This document shows positions 1 to 5,563 of a stretch of 64,000 nucleotides of DNA, one piece after another (position 1 is the first letter of the stretch; every line of letters begins with the position of its first letter). The position numbers and the translations under genes are program-made. Origin of the DNA: Actinomycetota bacterium. GTDB taxonomy: Bacteria > Actinomycetota > Actinomycetes > Actinomycetales > Microbacteriaceae. Location of the stretch: contig WLIA01000003.1 of the NCBI GenBank assembly GCA_009702455.1, forward strand, positions 1 to 64,000, written 5' to 3'. The notes under the pieces are model-generated. The model was given only the letters and a program-made list of their open reading frames with translations, was not told where the DNA came from and did no database searches.

Positions 1-275
1 AGCTTGTGGCCGGTGACGTGTCTGCCGTTGTCGATCGAATCACGGATGCTCACCCCGGCCGCCTGTTCGTCGTCGGCGGGGCCGACGTCGCCAGGCAGTT
101 GCTCGAAGCCGGCAAGCTCGACGTGGTGGTGTTGACCACAACTCCTGACCAACTGGAGGTTGGCCTCAAGCTTTGGGCTGCCGACACTTGGCGCGATGGG
201 TTCGAGCTAGTGGCTCGCGAAGAGTTCGCGAGCGGTCTCTCGCAAGAAACTTGGCGCCGCAACAAAGACGAATAG
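1..275 (+). CDS. RibD C-terminal/dihydrofolate reductase-family protein (5' truncated by window)
   Basis: The reading frame is open from the first base, so the N-terminus lies outside the window; the GTG at base 6 is probably internal. The visible 90 residues contain FVVGGADVARQLLEAG, a short beta strand plus helix typical of the C-terminal part of RibD-C/DHFR-fold reductases, followed by the DELxL-like position (KLDVVVLTTTP) and a final strand. Such proteins reduce pteridine or riboflavin intermediates with NADPH, but many members in Actinobacteria have no assigned substrate. Family call is from motif memory only. Confidence 0.6.
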   Translation, partial: LVAGDVSAVVDRITDAHPGRLFVVGGADVARQLLEAGKLDVVVLTTTPDQLEVGLKLWAADTWRDGFELVAREEFASGLSQETWRRNKDE

Positions 276-443
276 ACACCGCCAGCCAATCCAGGTCGCT
301 CTCGGTTAGCATGTCTTAGATGCCACTCGCACTTAGGTGCAACTTAGAAAACGTCATCCCAGTTGGTGTCTTGGCTAGGCCATATTGAACCAAGAAATCG
401 TGACCGAAGACAAGTGCGTCGCCCGCGTTTAGGTGCGGAAGCG
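276..443. other. Intergenic region with ilvC-derived sequence
   Basis: Between the reductase and the DUF2130 gene, which end facing each other. No complete gene seen. It holds a 42-nt stretch nearly identical to the middle of ilvC (listed separately). No clear hairpin terminator was found. Confidence 0.5.
318..434 (-). pseudogene. ketol-acid reductoisomerase (ilvC) relic
   Basis: On the minus strand, bases 434-393 match ilvC bases 5220-5179 at 39 of 42 positions (hand count), including 21 consecutive identical bases, in the same orientation. Translated, the stretch reads [13 protein letters not shown], against [13 protein letters not shown] in the intact IlvC of this window, and continues with FGH.F....GL.K.P positions shared with IlvC before drifting to a stop at about 318. 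There is no start, no NADPH-binding domain and no C-terminal domain, so this is a fragment and not a gene. The left boundary is where the frame stops; homology beyond about 375 is weak. Confidence 0.6.
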
Positions 444-1631
444 TTAGTCTCCTAGCTCTTTAAATTTCTTGGTCATGGTGTCGTTGTCCTTTGTGAGCGA
501 CTCGATGGTAACGGCGTTGGCCTTCGTCTCCGCGCTTTCAGCGTGTTGAACCCAAAGGCGCAATTGATCCTTAAGGTCGGTGAGCATATCAATGCTCTTG
601 TCGATGTCGTCTATCGCATCTTTGTATCGGTCGTTAGCCCACTTCGCCGACTTACCAATATCCTTCTTGAACTTCTCAAGGCGATCGTTGAAGAGTTCGA
701 CGTCAATGTTCTGTTGACGGATTCGCTGCAGTTCGCGCTTGTCATCGACCGTGTTTAGCGCATTGTTACGGAGCAGGGCAAGCATTGGAAGGAAGAACTG
801 CGGGCGAATCACAAACATCTTCGGGTACTTGTGGGAAACGTCCACAATCCCCTGGTTGTAATAGTCACTGTCTTTCTCGAGCATCGAAACCAGAATTGCG
901 TACTCGCAGCCTTTTTCGTTGCGATCCTTATCGAGCTCTTTGAAGAAGTCTTCGTTCTTTTTCTTCTTATCCGTGGCATCCGCCTCGTTTTTCATCTCGA
1001 GCATGACTGAAACGATTTGAATTTCGTCGACGTAGTCACGGAAGATGTAGTCACCCTGGCTTCCGGACTTGGCATTGGTGTCTTTTTCGAAATAGGCGTT
1101 CGGGAATGCCATCGCACGCACTGAGTTGAACTCGTCGGCGCAGTGCTTCTCGAGGTCTTCGCCAATTGCCTTGGTCGACTGTCGGACTTTCATGTTTTTG
1201 TACAGCTCTATCTCTTTATCCTTGACAGACAACTCGTTCAGGTGCTCTTGCCTTAAGGTTGCCTCCTGGGCTGCTTTGGCTGCTGCGAGCACCTTCATGT
1301 CCGCTTCCAACTGTGTATTTTGGGTAATCAGGTCTGCGAGCGCCTTTGTCTTGTCCAACTCAGCTGCTGTTGCGGCTGAAGTGAGCTCTGAATTGAGTCG
1401 GGTATTCTCCTGAATTAGCGCTACTCTCTCAGCCTCGGCTTTGGCCTCGATTTCCTTAGCCGAAATTTGAGCCTCTAACTCAAGGCGCTTCTCGGCCTCC
1501 ACTAAGCGCTTGTGGAGTTCATCACTGAACTCGTGATCGCGCACCTGCTTAACGATGTCAGCGAACGGAGCATCGTCGATGGTGAACACTGACTTGCAAT
1601 TCGGGCATTTGATTTCTTTTGAATTACTCAT
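444..1631 (-). CDS. DUF2130 family protein, predicted PD-(D/E)XK nuclease-like
   Basis: 395 aa. An N-terminal CPNC zinc-ribbon half-motif (residues 9-12) is followed by a long charged coiled coil (about 35-150) and the DUF2130 domain (about 150-390). Within that domain GSQGDYIF and LEMKNEAD look like the D...ExK core of the restriction-endonuclease fold, which is how this family is usually interpreted. Biochemical function is unknown. It is the last gene of a four-gene unit: the upstream stop codon is 9 nt before its ATG. Length is normal for the family. Residue roles are inference from motif shape. Confidence 0.75.
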   Translation of the reverse strand: MSNSKEIKCPNCKSVFTIDDAPFADIVKQVRDHEFSDELHKRLVEAEKRLELEAQISAKEIEAKAEAERVALIQENTRLNSELTSAATAAELDKTKALADLITQNTQLEADMKVLAAAKAAQEATLRQEHLNELSVKDKEIELYKNMKVRQSTKAIGEDLEKHCADEFNSVRAMAFPNAYFEKDTNAKSGSQGDYIFRDYVDEIQIVSVMLEMKNEADATDKKKKNEDFFKELDKDRNEKGCEYAILVSMLEKDSDYYNQGIVDVSHKYPKMFVIRPQFFLPMLALLRNNALNTVDDKRELQRIRQQNIDVELFNDRLEKFKKDIGKSAKWANDRYKDAIDDIDKSIDMLTDLKDQLRLWVQHAESAETKANAVTIESLTKDNDTMTKKFKELGD

Positions 1632-1640
1632 GGCTTCTTT

Positions 1641-2102
1641 CTAACTCTCGATGTTTCTATTTAGCACGACTGGCAATGGGACCAGTCGCAAACTGCAGTG
1701 ATGGGCAATCTTGTCTAAGGCGGATTTGATCAAGGACTCCAGGTTGGAGCCTTCAACTCCCGCTGTGTAGTATGGTTCGCCCTCGGTGTCCGAACCGGGC
1801 GTTAGTAATGTCACACTACTTCGCAACTGAGAAATACGAAAGTTGCGCTTTGTGACTGGCTCGACCAGTTCGCGCCATTTATACCAATTTGATGTGCCAT
1901 TGAATCCGGGAACTGTTGACGTGAATAAGAGTTCATAGCCATCGTTGAGGACGACAGTCAGAGTCGAGACCTTACCTAGGTATTGAACCCCGCCTTGCAG
2001 CCTAAGTTTGCCTTCTAGTTCCAACCGGATTTGCTCCGTTTCCAATTCCAAGCCTAACTCTGGGAAAAGTAGACGTAAGGATTCTGCGTCGTGTGTATTC
2101 AC
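1641..2102 (-). CDS. Hypothetical protein of the DUF2130 operon
   Basis: 153 aa, not recognised. The ORF track starts it at a TTG (2141) inside the WhiB-HTH gene. I prefer the GTG at 2102, which overlaps the upstream TAG as TAGTG and has GGAAG 7 nt upstream, giving a protein beginning MNTHDAESLR. The sequence is mixed alpha/beta with many beta-prone stretches (YLGKVSTLTVVLNDGYELLFTS) and no signal peptide or membrane segment. The coupled start and the 9-nt gap to DUF2130 indicate co-translation with both neighbours. Confidence 0.6.
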   Translation of the reverse strand: MNTHDAESLRLLFPELGLELETEQIRLELEGKLRLQGGVQYLGKVSTLTVVLNDGYELLFTSTVPGFNGTSNWYKWRELVEPVTKRNFRISQLRSSVTLLTPGSDTEGEPYYTAGVEGSNLESLIKSALDKIAHHCSLRLVPLPVVLNRNIES

Positions 2103-2536
2103 TATGCCACTTCCAAACTTGATCGAAGAGCCCCGCGCCAACGAACAACCGTGCGCTTATCAACGCCGAATCTCAGGGCTACTTCTGCCGCGCTCGAATT
2201 CAGAATGAAGATCGACTCTTGGATAATGTGCTCGATGTCCAGCAGGCTGATAATAGGCTTGCCACCACGAATGAGAAACCGCTCTTTTTCACTGAGCCCG
2301 CCGAATACCCCGTATTCGGCAAATTGAACACCCCACCTTGCGCACTCAGCAAGAATTGGACAGTCGACACAAATAGCTTTAGCGGTGAGAATGTCGGAAG
2401 AATCCTCCGAGAAGAAAAGGTTCGTGTCCTGACTTTTGCAATTACCTTCAAGGCCAAAAACAGGTAATTTCGTTGGCAGGTCAAGGGATGGGAAACGCCC
2501 AGACTTGGCTAGACGGACGCTAATTGGAGTTCGAGC
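2102..2536 (-). CDS. WhiB-like iron-sulfur protein with C-terminal helix-turn-helix
   Basis: 144 aa from the ATG at 2536, which has AAAGGA 8-9 nt upstream; the ORF-track start at 2611 would overlap the preceding gene by 70 nt. Cys34, Cys57, Cys60 and Cys66 give the C-xn-C-x2-C-x5-C pattern that binds a [4Fe-4S] cluster in Wbl proteins. The usual G[V/I]WGG turn reads GVFGG (77-81). Unlike standard WhiB proteins it continues with about 55 residues ending in AAEVALRFGVDKRTVVRWR, a likely helix-turn-helix. Probably a redox- or NO-sensing transcription factor of its own operon (inference). Wbl proteins with extra domains are common on phages and mobile elements. Confidence 0.75.
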   Translation of the reverse strand, partial: ARTPISVRLAKSGRFPSLDLPTKLPVFGLEGNCKSQDTNLFFSEDSSDILTAKAICVDCPILAECARWGVQFAEYGVFGGLSEKERFLIRGGKPIISLLDIEHIIQESIFILNSSAAEVALRFGVDKRTVVRWRGALRSSLEVA

Positions 2537-2541
2537 CATAC

Positions 2542-2796
2542 TCAGAGTCCTTTCGGGATTGACGACCATTTGGCTTTGGAGGTCAGATGGACACCGGAGC
2601 AAAGCTGACATTTATACTTGCGGACCTCTTGCCTGCGGCAATTCACCCCATTCATGGCGGCGCCGTTACGATGATTGGCTGCTCGATGCAATGCATCGAC
2701 TGCCTGTCGCGGATCACGGAACCTCTTCTTGCCGCTGGGACATTGACGCTTTTGCCCTTTGGTGTGGAGGGGGCGCTCTCCGTTGAATTTACTCAT
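2542..2796 (-). CDS. Small CCCH zinc-ribbon-like protein
   Basis: 84 aa, basic. Cys19, Cys63, Cys66 and His70 form a probable zinc site: QCPSGKKRF near the start and YKCQLCSGVHLTS at the end, with a helix between. This layout is common in small phage and actinobacterial proteins of unknown function. Its stop lies 5 nt before the WhiB-HTH start and carries that gene's ribosome binding site, so it is the first gene of the operon. The start at 2796 has only a weak upstream site. Confidence 0.6.
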   Translation of the reverse strand: MSKFNGERPLHTKGQKRQCPSGKKRFRDPRQAVDALHRAANHRNGAAMNGVNCRRQEVRKYKCQLCSGVHLTSKAKWSSIPKGL

Positions 2797-2886
2797 GAAA
2801 CATTTCTTTCTGTGATAGTTGCTACTTGACTTAACCCCTCAACCTCAACTTAGCAAATAAAATTCTAAAAATGTAGCCAGTTTTTA

Positions 2887-2915
2887 GTGCTGTTCGCTCA
2901 TGGCAGAAACAGCAC
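2887..2915. promoter_or_regulatory. Perfect 8-bp inverted repeat in the divergent promoter
   Basis: GTGCTGTT at 2887-2894 and AACAGCAC at 2908-2915, separated by 13 nt, between the two divergent start codons of the accessory block. It is AT-poor relative to its surroundings and has no U-tract, so an operator is more likely than a terminator. The WhiB-HTH protein is an obvious candidate ligand, but this is inference. Confidence 0.45.
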
Positions 2916-2957
2916 AATGTCGTGGTTTGGGCTAAAATTTGAGGTGGAGGTTACCCG

Positions 2958-4139
2958 ATGAGTATTAAAGGTGAACAAGCGCTTAGTGCGGTTCAGGAGC
3001 TTCTCGATCAGGAGCAAAGGGCTGAGGCCGGAAAAATGTCCTTAGAACTAGCCAAAGCTGCACAGCCGCAAATGATCGAGCTCGGTTTGTCTGACCGGTC
3101 GCTGAAGCTCTTCGAGAGTTTCAGAGCAGCATCCACTAAGACCGCTAACTCTGCTGACATCCTGGCGTATCACTATCTGCGCAACAAAGCTCCCGCCGCA
3201 GATGTGAACGAGGATCCAAAGTTTATACACTTCTCCCTGCGTCTTACTCAAGGATTTGAGATTGACCAAAAGGCTGTCAAACGCCTGTACGACAACATGT
3301 TGCCCCTCTACTCTGAGCTGGAACGGAAGTTACTGCAATCAAGAAGTCGCCGGACACACACAGAGGCTGTCTTGCGAATCTTTAAGCCTAGATACCTGTC
3401 AAACTGGAGAACAGACAATGTAACTCAGATTGACTTCGCGTATCTCGAACGAGAGACCAAAAAACTTCGCGAACGTCGCTTATCGAGTCCTGAGGAAATA
3501 CAAACCTGGTCGCAAGATGTTTTTAATCTGTTTGCCAATACTGCAGTCATGACAAACGAACAAAGAGATTTTGTGATTAGTCGGTCCAAGAATGATCCCA
3601 AAGTAAAAAAGCCGCTAGGGCTAATAAGCGAGGGCAGCCTAGAAATTTATTCCAGCCGGTGGAAGACATGGTTTGCGATTCATGGCACTGAGCTCCTACA
3701 ACTTGATTACAGTTCGATCCCGCCACTAGACAGCGATATCTCCAAAAATGAAGCTGCCCGACACGTTTGGAACGAAGCTTCGAAAATGCGGGACGACCTC
3801 AATTGGAAAATGAAAAAGGTAAATGACCAAATTTTGAACCTGCAAAGCGCGTTGGCGTCGAACCAAAAGGGATCTGTCCGTGTACTGCTTGAGTCAGCAT
3901 CCGACAGTGAAATCAACTCGTCGTGGTCGTCGTCGGTAAACCCAGACGCTATACAAGGGCTCTCGACCTGGATAGCGGAAACGCGAACATTCTGGGTTGC
4001 CGCTGCAGAGACCGTCAAGGGTGAAGTTAGTTTTAAATCCGGTTCGAACGAGACCAAGCACAGCCTTCCTGAAATGACCTTGGATAAGTTCAGCAAACTT
4101 GTATCGGATGCGATTTCGAGACGCTTAGAGGGTAATTAG
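2958..4139 (+). CDS. Hypothetical protein, divergent from the DUF2130 operon
   Basis: 393 aa, not recognised. Start chosen at the ATG with GGTGGAGG upstream; TAAAAT at about 2933 may be its -10. The protein is mostly helical and charged, without signal peptide or cysteine motif. The stretch around residues 275-305 (MRDDLNWKMKKVNDQIL) looks like a coiled coil. It reads away from the zinc-ribbon/WhiB/DUF2130 operon with a shared 160-nt promoter region. Its TAG stop is followed in the same frame by 73 open codons with a membrane segment (next feature). Confidence 0.55.
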   Translation: MSIKGEQALSAVQELLDQEQRAEAGKMSLELAKAAQPQMIELGLSDRSLKLFESFRAASTKTANSADILAYHYLRNKAPAADVNEDPKFIHFSLRLTQGFEIDQKAVKRLYDNMLPLYSELERKLLQSRSRRTHTEAVLRIFKPRYLSNWRTDNVTQIDFAYLERETKKLRERRLSSPEEIQTWSQDVFNLFANTAVMTNEQRDFVISRSKNDPKVKKPLGLISEGSLEIYSSRWKTWFAIHGTELLQLDYSSIPPLDSDISKNEAARHVWNEASKMRDDLNWKMKKVNDQILNLQSALASNQKGSVRVLLESASDSEINSSWSSSVNPDAIQGLSTWIAETRTFWVAAAETVKGEVSFKSGSNETKHSLPEMTLDKFSKLVSDAISRRLEGN

Positions 4140-4361
4140 CGTCCACCTTTTTCAGCCGATGCTCTTTCTGGTACCCAACCTCTGTTTGACCGATTGGTGC
4201 TTGATGAGATTTCACCGTCGGCAAAGATCACGTTGGTGCCTTCATGTCGACAAGTGTTGGCGACAATCGTCATAGTTCTTGCTGCTATGGCTTTCACATT
4301 CTATGGAACTAGGCAAAGGTCGCAAGAAATAGGGCGCCTAAAATCGAATCTGCGGTCTTGA
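4140..4361 (+). pseudogene. In-frame continuation after the TAG stop, with one membrane segment
   Basis: Directly after the TAG at 4137-4139 the same frame stays open for 73 codons to TGA at 4359-4361. It encodes a soluble stretch then a hydrophobic segment (VLATIVIVLAAMAFTFYG) and a basic tail, the pattern of a tail anchor. Either the upstream gene was shortened by a nonsense mutation, the TAG is read through, or a separate small protein starts at TTG 4194 or GTG 4197 (no ribosome site seen). Being open by chance over 73 codons is unlikely but possible. Confidence 0.4.
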
Positions 4362-4421
4362 ACACTTTTTCAAGCGTTACGCCATCATGATGGCTCAAGG
4401 GTAGTTTCAGTGCTCCGAAAT

Positions 4422-4456
4422 GAAGAGACCCCGCCGGAAGACCGACGGGGTCTTTT
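4422..4456 (-). terminator. Rho-independent terminator of ilvDBNC
   Basis: On the minus strand AGACCCCGtCGG pairs with CCGgCGGGGTCT around a short TCTT loop, about 20 nt after the ilvC stop. The opposite-strand copy ends in TCTTTTCG, so it could also stop plus-strand transcription. Confidence 0.8.
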
Positions 4457-4474
4457 CGTAAAACATTCGAGCGA

Positions 4475-5563
<1,089 letters not shown>

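Follow-up and report, generated by a model that had tools for sequence, protein, structure and literature searches.

A composite accessory island beside ilvC in a small freshwater actinobacterium, possibly an anti-invader cassette

Several described systems resemble components of the locus analyzed here. Shield is a phage defense with the RmuC-domain protein ShdA (PMC10270631), and RmuC, too, contains coiled coils (PMC1189080). The likeness to our locus lies in the use of an RmuC (PD-(D/E)XK-type) domain protein as defense nuclease together with accessory modulators; in contrast, ShdA is membrane bound, whereas the DUF2130 protein of our locus carries an N-terminal CxxC and is without detectable RmuC profile similarity. 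BrxR/CapW and RptR are comparable as small DNA-binding regulators encoded with defense genes (PMC9122601, PMC9122588, PMC12255303), but here the regulator joins a WhiB domain to an HTH and is accompanied by a zinc-ribbon protein. No WhiB paper was among the top matches listed for literature on defense-island regulators. WhiB proteins of the Gordonia phages Apricot and Malisha share with ours the WhiB domain and a C-terminal HTH-like region, at 26 to 32% identity, although the neighboring phage genes that were translated are not of this zinc-ribbon type. DUF2130 (PF09903) proteins of pNP40-type plasmids and of type I R-M neighborhoods belong to the same domain family at 41 to 51% identity; elsewhere the gene lies next to TrlF, R-M, or Pbe genes, whereas here it lies behind WhiB-HTH. 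The family is widespread, and we found very little literature on it.

Our locus lies near one end of the window, the whole 64,000-nucleotide stretch that was analyzed, which opens at the start of a contig (C23) of a small freshwater actinobacterium (assembly of 1.29 Mb, 85% complete). We tentatively favor reading it as a composite accessory island that acts as a conditionally expressed anti-invader cassette, with a nuclease-type effector under an Fe-S regulator. Its features and borders are the following.

6..275, plus strand: 3' part of a DHFR/RibD-like gene, cut by the contig start (weak RibD_C match); left border of the insertion
329..435, minus strand: ilvC fragment of 107 nt, 78.5% identical to ilvC 5114-5220 (blastn/tblastn)
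444..1631, minus strand: DUF2130 protein, 395 aa (PF09903, E=4.8e-67)
1641..2102, minus strand: orphan, 153 aa, GTG start; ORF with no significant family match
2102..2539, minus strand: WhiB-HTH regulator, 145 aa (PF02467, 6.2e-15)
2542..2796, minus strand: zinc-ribbon protein, 84 aa, C..CxxC..H (phrog_3424, 8.8e-10)
2797..2957, no strand: divergent intergenic region of 161 nt between the zinc-ribbon gene and the partner
2887-2915, no strand: perfect inverted repeat GTGCTGTT-N13-AACAGCAC, a tentative candidate operator
2958..4139, plus strand: divergent partner, 393 aa, predicted helical (homologue at L077:262-1383)
4422..4457, minus strand: terminator-like hairpin after ilvC; right border of the insertion
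4475-5509, minus strand: ilvC, direct neighbor of the module

A sequence-only reading of this DNA had proposed five genes forming an accessory, divergently organized module. That organization is borne out, and all five ORFs are present where they had been placed, with small corrections of start codons. The WhiB-HTH gene is listed as an ORF at 2102-2611; a better start is the ATG at 2539, which has AAAGGA upstream. With this start, the zinc-ribbon and WhiB-HTH genes are separated by 2 nt rather than the 5 nt first reported; the reported overlap, which is 1 nt between the WhiB-HTH stop and the orphan, and the 9 nt between orphan and DUF2130 both stand. None of the five proteins matched a system model of PADLOC-DB 2023 up to E=1. 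In the divergent intergenic region, the inverted repeat is of a kind that also arose in 45 of 300 shuffles. We set aside the idea of a regulon defined by this repeat, as the genome holds a single exact copy and the 13 sites found with 3 mismatches, against 6 in the control, are not informative.

Positions 276-4420 constitute an accessory island that has entered a variable spot between ilvC and the DHFR/RibD-like gene. We read this interval as an insertion because relatives have a DHFR-like gene (or serA) directly after ilvC and because the interval itself is variable. The gene that immediately follows ilvC in G341 shares 41% identity with the DHFR/RibD-like sequence at 6-275; there, this gene and ilvC are convergent and about 60 bp apart. 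A DHFR-like gene also directly follows ilvC, convergently, in G340 and with a wider gap in G205, and in G010 and G316 serA comes at once after ilvC, leaving the interval empty. Across the genus (L060-L076), cargo is gained and lost between ilvC and serA, which makes this interval a hotspot. One genome (G288) holds a type III R-M pair there, and the cargo of others presumably comprises winged-helix/nucleotidyltransferase-like, HEPN-like, TA-like, DUF3800, and secreted proteins, as we read them from their sequences. The island is AT-richer than its surroundings (GC of 49.1% versus 55.1 +/- 0.8% in same-sized windows), and no other defense genes were identified in the examined part of the window. 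The earlier description of the module as lying away from all core genes must be abandoned, with ilvC as its direct neighbor; beyond ilvC, on the same strand, lie what we take from the sequence to be ilvN-like and then ilvB-like acetolactate synthase subunit genes.

The ilvC fragment at the island's left edge, beside the DHFR-like gene, has the same orientation as ilvC, so that a direct repeat flanks the module. The fragment is a scar left either by the insertion event or by recombination with a further copy of ilvC. Interpretation of the repeats as att sites was rejected: the repeat is coding sequence of 78% identity, no recombinase is present, and recombination debris is as likely. A prophage or integrative element was likewise rejected as a reading of the island, since the insertion lacks an integrase.

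The sequence-only reading had treated the five genes as one system, which is not supported for the whole set as a conserved unit. The recurring unit is instead an evolutionarily linked trio, in which the partner faces the zinc-ribbon and WhiB-HTH genes; it recurs in one other genome, while DUF2130 occurs separately and the orphan is unique. In the MAG G343 (contig CANFKN010000171, L077), a 373-aa gene faces zinc-ribbon and WhiB-HTH genes in exactly the arrangement of the window. This gene (L077:262-1383) is 21 to 22% identical to the partner (BLASTP E=3e-8, core residues 102-245), and the zinc ribbons are 35% and the WhiB-HTH proteins 31% identical, so that the two known copies of the trio, one in each MAG, are 22 to 35% identical. 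In G343, an opposite-strand 174-aa gene follows WhiB-HTH, and the trio is without DUF2130. A further genome (G345) has WhiB-HTH and then the zinc-ribbon gene, in reversed order, with no partner visible before the contig ends 445 nt on.

A profile of the partner matches 2 of 67 genus genomes (G000 and G343), and both carry the zinc-ribbon/WhiB-HTH pair; this co-occurrence (2/2) has P=0.0014 if the genomes are independent, with the sole convincing relative of the partner, in the second MAG, having been reached through its neighbor genes. The profile found no further match in 395 class genomes or in viral contigs, single-sequence searches found no relative in phage or plasmid records, and none appeared in a scan of contigs that covered 84,980 species with a single genome each. 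Two matches in 300 family genomes were marginal (E of 0.006 to 0.008). Assignment of the partner to a known family was rejected, as it has no Pfam, PADLOC, or NCBIfam match and its PHROGs matches are weak and nonsignificant. Its AF2 model (pLDDT 39) is mainly helical and uninformative and was kept out of the fold search. Given the recurrence in G343 at low identity, the partner in 2 of 67 genomes, the P value, and the lack of matches elsewhere searched, the trio is real, rare, and fast diverging. An ORF of 55 aa with one hydrophobic stretch (4194-4361, plus strand) is the sole ORF in 4140-4361, the part of the originally noted interval downstream of the partner; it has no counterpart beside the partner of the second genome (L077).

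The earlier identification of WhiB-HTH is upheld. It is a genuine WhiB-type protein with a C-terminal HTH: C33, C56, C59, and C65 are invariant in the alignment, which also contains GVFGG, PF02467 scores 55.9 bits, and the WhiB1 structure is matched at 6.2e-17. The conserved cysteines suggest that it is an Fe-S protein. In 400 family genomes, there was no further full-length WhiB-HTH protein among the matches listed. Homologues of the zinc ribbon were found at L077 and L078; a zinc ribbon in a Chloroflexi MAG was discarded, being isolated and without WhiB.

The match of the zinc ribbon to the phage family phrog_3424 and the WhiB-HTH relatives in Gordonia phages would be in keeping with a phage or satellite origin of these two regulators, and perhaps of the partner, as a relic or as a means of superinfection control rather than a host stress cassette. 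The partly duplicated ilvC border would agree with such an origin, as would an actinophage contig (L111) on which zinc-ribbon and WhiB-HTH-like genes lie about 0.7 kb apart. Nevertheless, profiles found no zinc-ribbon or partner homologue in 80 viral WhiB loci, tblastn against 50,697 phage records gave none either, and the ORF listing gives neither an integrase nor a structural gene within the insertion, and we regard this origin as improbable. On L111, zinc-ribbon, RusA-like, and WhiB-HTH-like genes stand in a row, a possible source of the pair.

It had been suggested that homologues of the partner and of the 153-aa orphan be sought beside WhiB-HTH and DUF2130 genes. For the partner, the association with zinc-ribbon and WhiB-HTH genes is seen in another genome, as described above. 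For the orphan it is not: no convincing homologue was found in the genus, viral contigs, plasmids, the PDB, or the fetched loci. A weak match in G340 (E=0.008), with no DUF2130, WhiB-HTH, or zinc-ribbon gene seen nearby, was treated as chance.

The DUF2130 protein is a member of PF09903, with 226 bits against a cutoff of 26.7 over positions 4-254 of the 255 in the profile. Its N-terminus bears a CxxC and gave only a sub-threshold zinc-ribbon match. A long coiled coil (24-150) precedes the core, which contains D194 and E212-M-K214, and a second coiled coil forms the C-terminal part. Within GD194...E212-M-K214, residues D194, E212, and K214 are invariant in 13/13 sequences and follow the order of a PD-(D/E)XK active site. 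The AF2 model arranges helix (153-175)-strand-strand-strand-helix around D194/E212/K214, core confidence being mostly below 70, and Foldseek with this model returned no PD-(D/E)XK structure (E>1) and no usable match. The putative PD-(D/E)XK-like core that had been read from the sequence is supported by residues and predicted topology but not by a fold match. Membership in RmuC was rejected (hhalign probability of 0.1%).

DUF2130 travels separately from the trio. The two were seen together in this window only, and no other locus examined had DUF2130 beside a WhiB-HTH gene, an outcome which the sequence-only reading had itself named as counting against its proposal and which in part does so. Within the genus, a full-length DUF2130 is present in one other genome (G344, 51% identity), and a third has only a fragment, located where a contig ends. 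Of 300 family genomes, 27 have DUF2130. It is conceivable that two unrelated cargoes, the trio and DUF2130 (with or without the orphan), share one hotspot, their tight spacing being a by-product of deletion and compaction in a small genome. It speaks for this that the G343 trio lacks DUF2130, that none of the other DUF2130 loci examined has the trio, and that the flanking cargo varies. However, four codirectional genes with a 1-nt overlap and gaps of 2 and 9 nt suggest one transcript, which would point to selection for co-expression or at least to a single regulatory unit now. Two separate cargoes are, in our estimate, nearly as likely as an anti-invader cassette.

The company that DUF2130 keeps elsewhere bears on its role. 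In G344 it lies 80 nt from pbeA (PADLOC PbeA, 4e-202) in a defense island that also encodes a PbeC-like ATPase, type II R-M genes with an AlwI-like restriction enzyme and two methyltransferases, and, in addition, a NERD-helicase and a DUF3800-like protein. Of L232, L233, L234, and L235, the four loci most similar to the query, the neighbors are methyltransferases in L232 and type I R-M in L234 and L235, and in L233 a gene that we take from its sequence to be restriction-like adjoins DUF2130; type I R-M is also found in L251 and a NERD-like helicase in L249. At 1e-15, the neighbors at the six loci produce matches to 112 PADLOC families, compared with 3 in controls (shifted regions of the same genomes), many of the 112 being overlapping models of the same few methyltransferases and two of the six loci, L249 and L251, having been picked after their neighbors were inspected. 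AbiE, AbiF, and LlaJI are encoded on pNP40, a phage-resistance plasmid of Lactococcus (PMC8194271); there DUF2130 adjoins TrlF, with the methyltransferase genes to one side and an Abi gene to the other. Other Lactococcus plasmids carry DUF2130 as well. The invader-response link proposed earlier is supported by neighborhoods elsewhere and not by this locus itself.

In L240 and on a Mitsuaria plasmid, DUF2130 lies among ordinary genes, and the family is therefore not confined to defense. Such non-defense neighborhoods, recurring within genera, could be explained if DUF2130 were a protein of DNA repair or of the nucleoid, with the module serving as a general response to stress or redox change; the usual role of WhiB proteins in regulating stress responses or development would agree with this. 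Yet the closest DUF2130 relatives lie mostly among R-M, Pbe, and NERD-helicase genes, and we consider this explanation very unlikely.

For the anti-invader cassette that we favor, we infer regulation, nuclease activity, defense, and cooperation of the trio with DUF2130 along the following lines. The WhiB-HTH and zinc-ribbon proteins would most likely control the shared divergent promoter, and the spacing of 1 to 9 nt suggests that DUF2130 is co-transcribed behind WhiB-HTH through the orphan gene. On sensing a change linked to infection or stress, the Fe-S regulator would then switch on the nuclease operon, and DUF2130, as a PD-(D/E)XK-like effector, would most likely act on foreign or damaged DNA. 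The partner might be the trio's own effector or modulator. It could further be speculated, as a doubtful extension, that an undescribed defense or conflict module of actinobacteria has the trio as its core for control and sensing, in which the Fe-S WhiB-HTH protein and its zinc-ribbon cofactor govern a fast-evolving helical partner and can adopt interchangeable effectors, here the DUF2130 coiled-coil nuclease. If true, streamlined freshwater actinobacteria would have an Fe-S WhiB-type switch over a defense nuclease, and their response to phages would be coupled to redox or iron state. Whichever way the island is read, the DUF2130 neighborhoods make the family a concrete candidate defense nuclease.

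Another protein recurs near DUF2130. A conserved protein of about 656 aa directly precedes HsdM in type I R-M (L234:8107-11702, L235:2835-6457, L251:7817-11442, and L197:2500-6191), with 63 to 66% identity among L234, L235, and L251, and a relative (39%) is encoded with a type I R-M locus near DUF2130 on an Arthrobacter plasmid.
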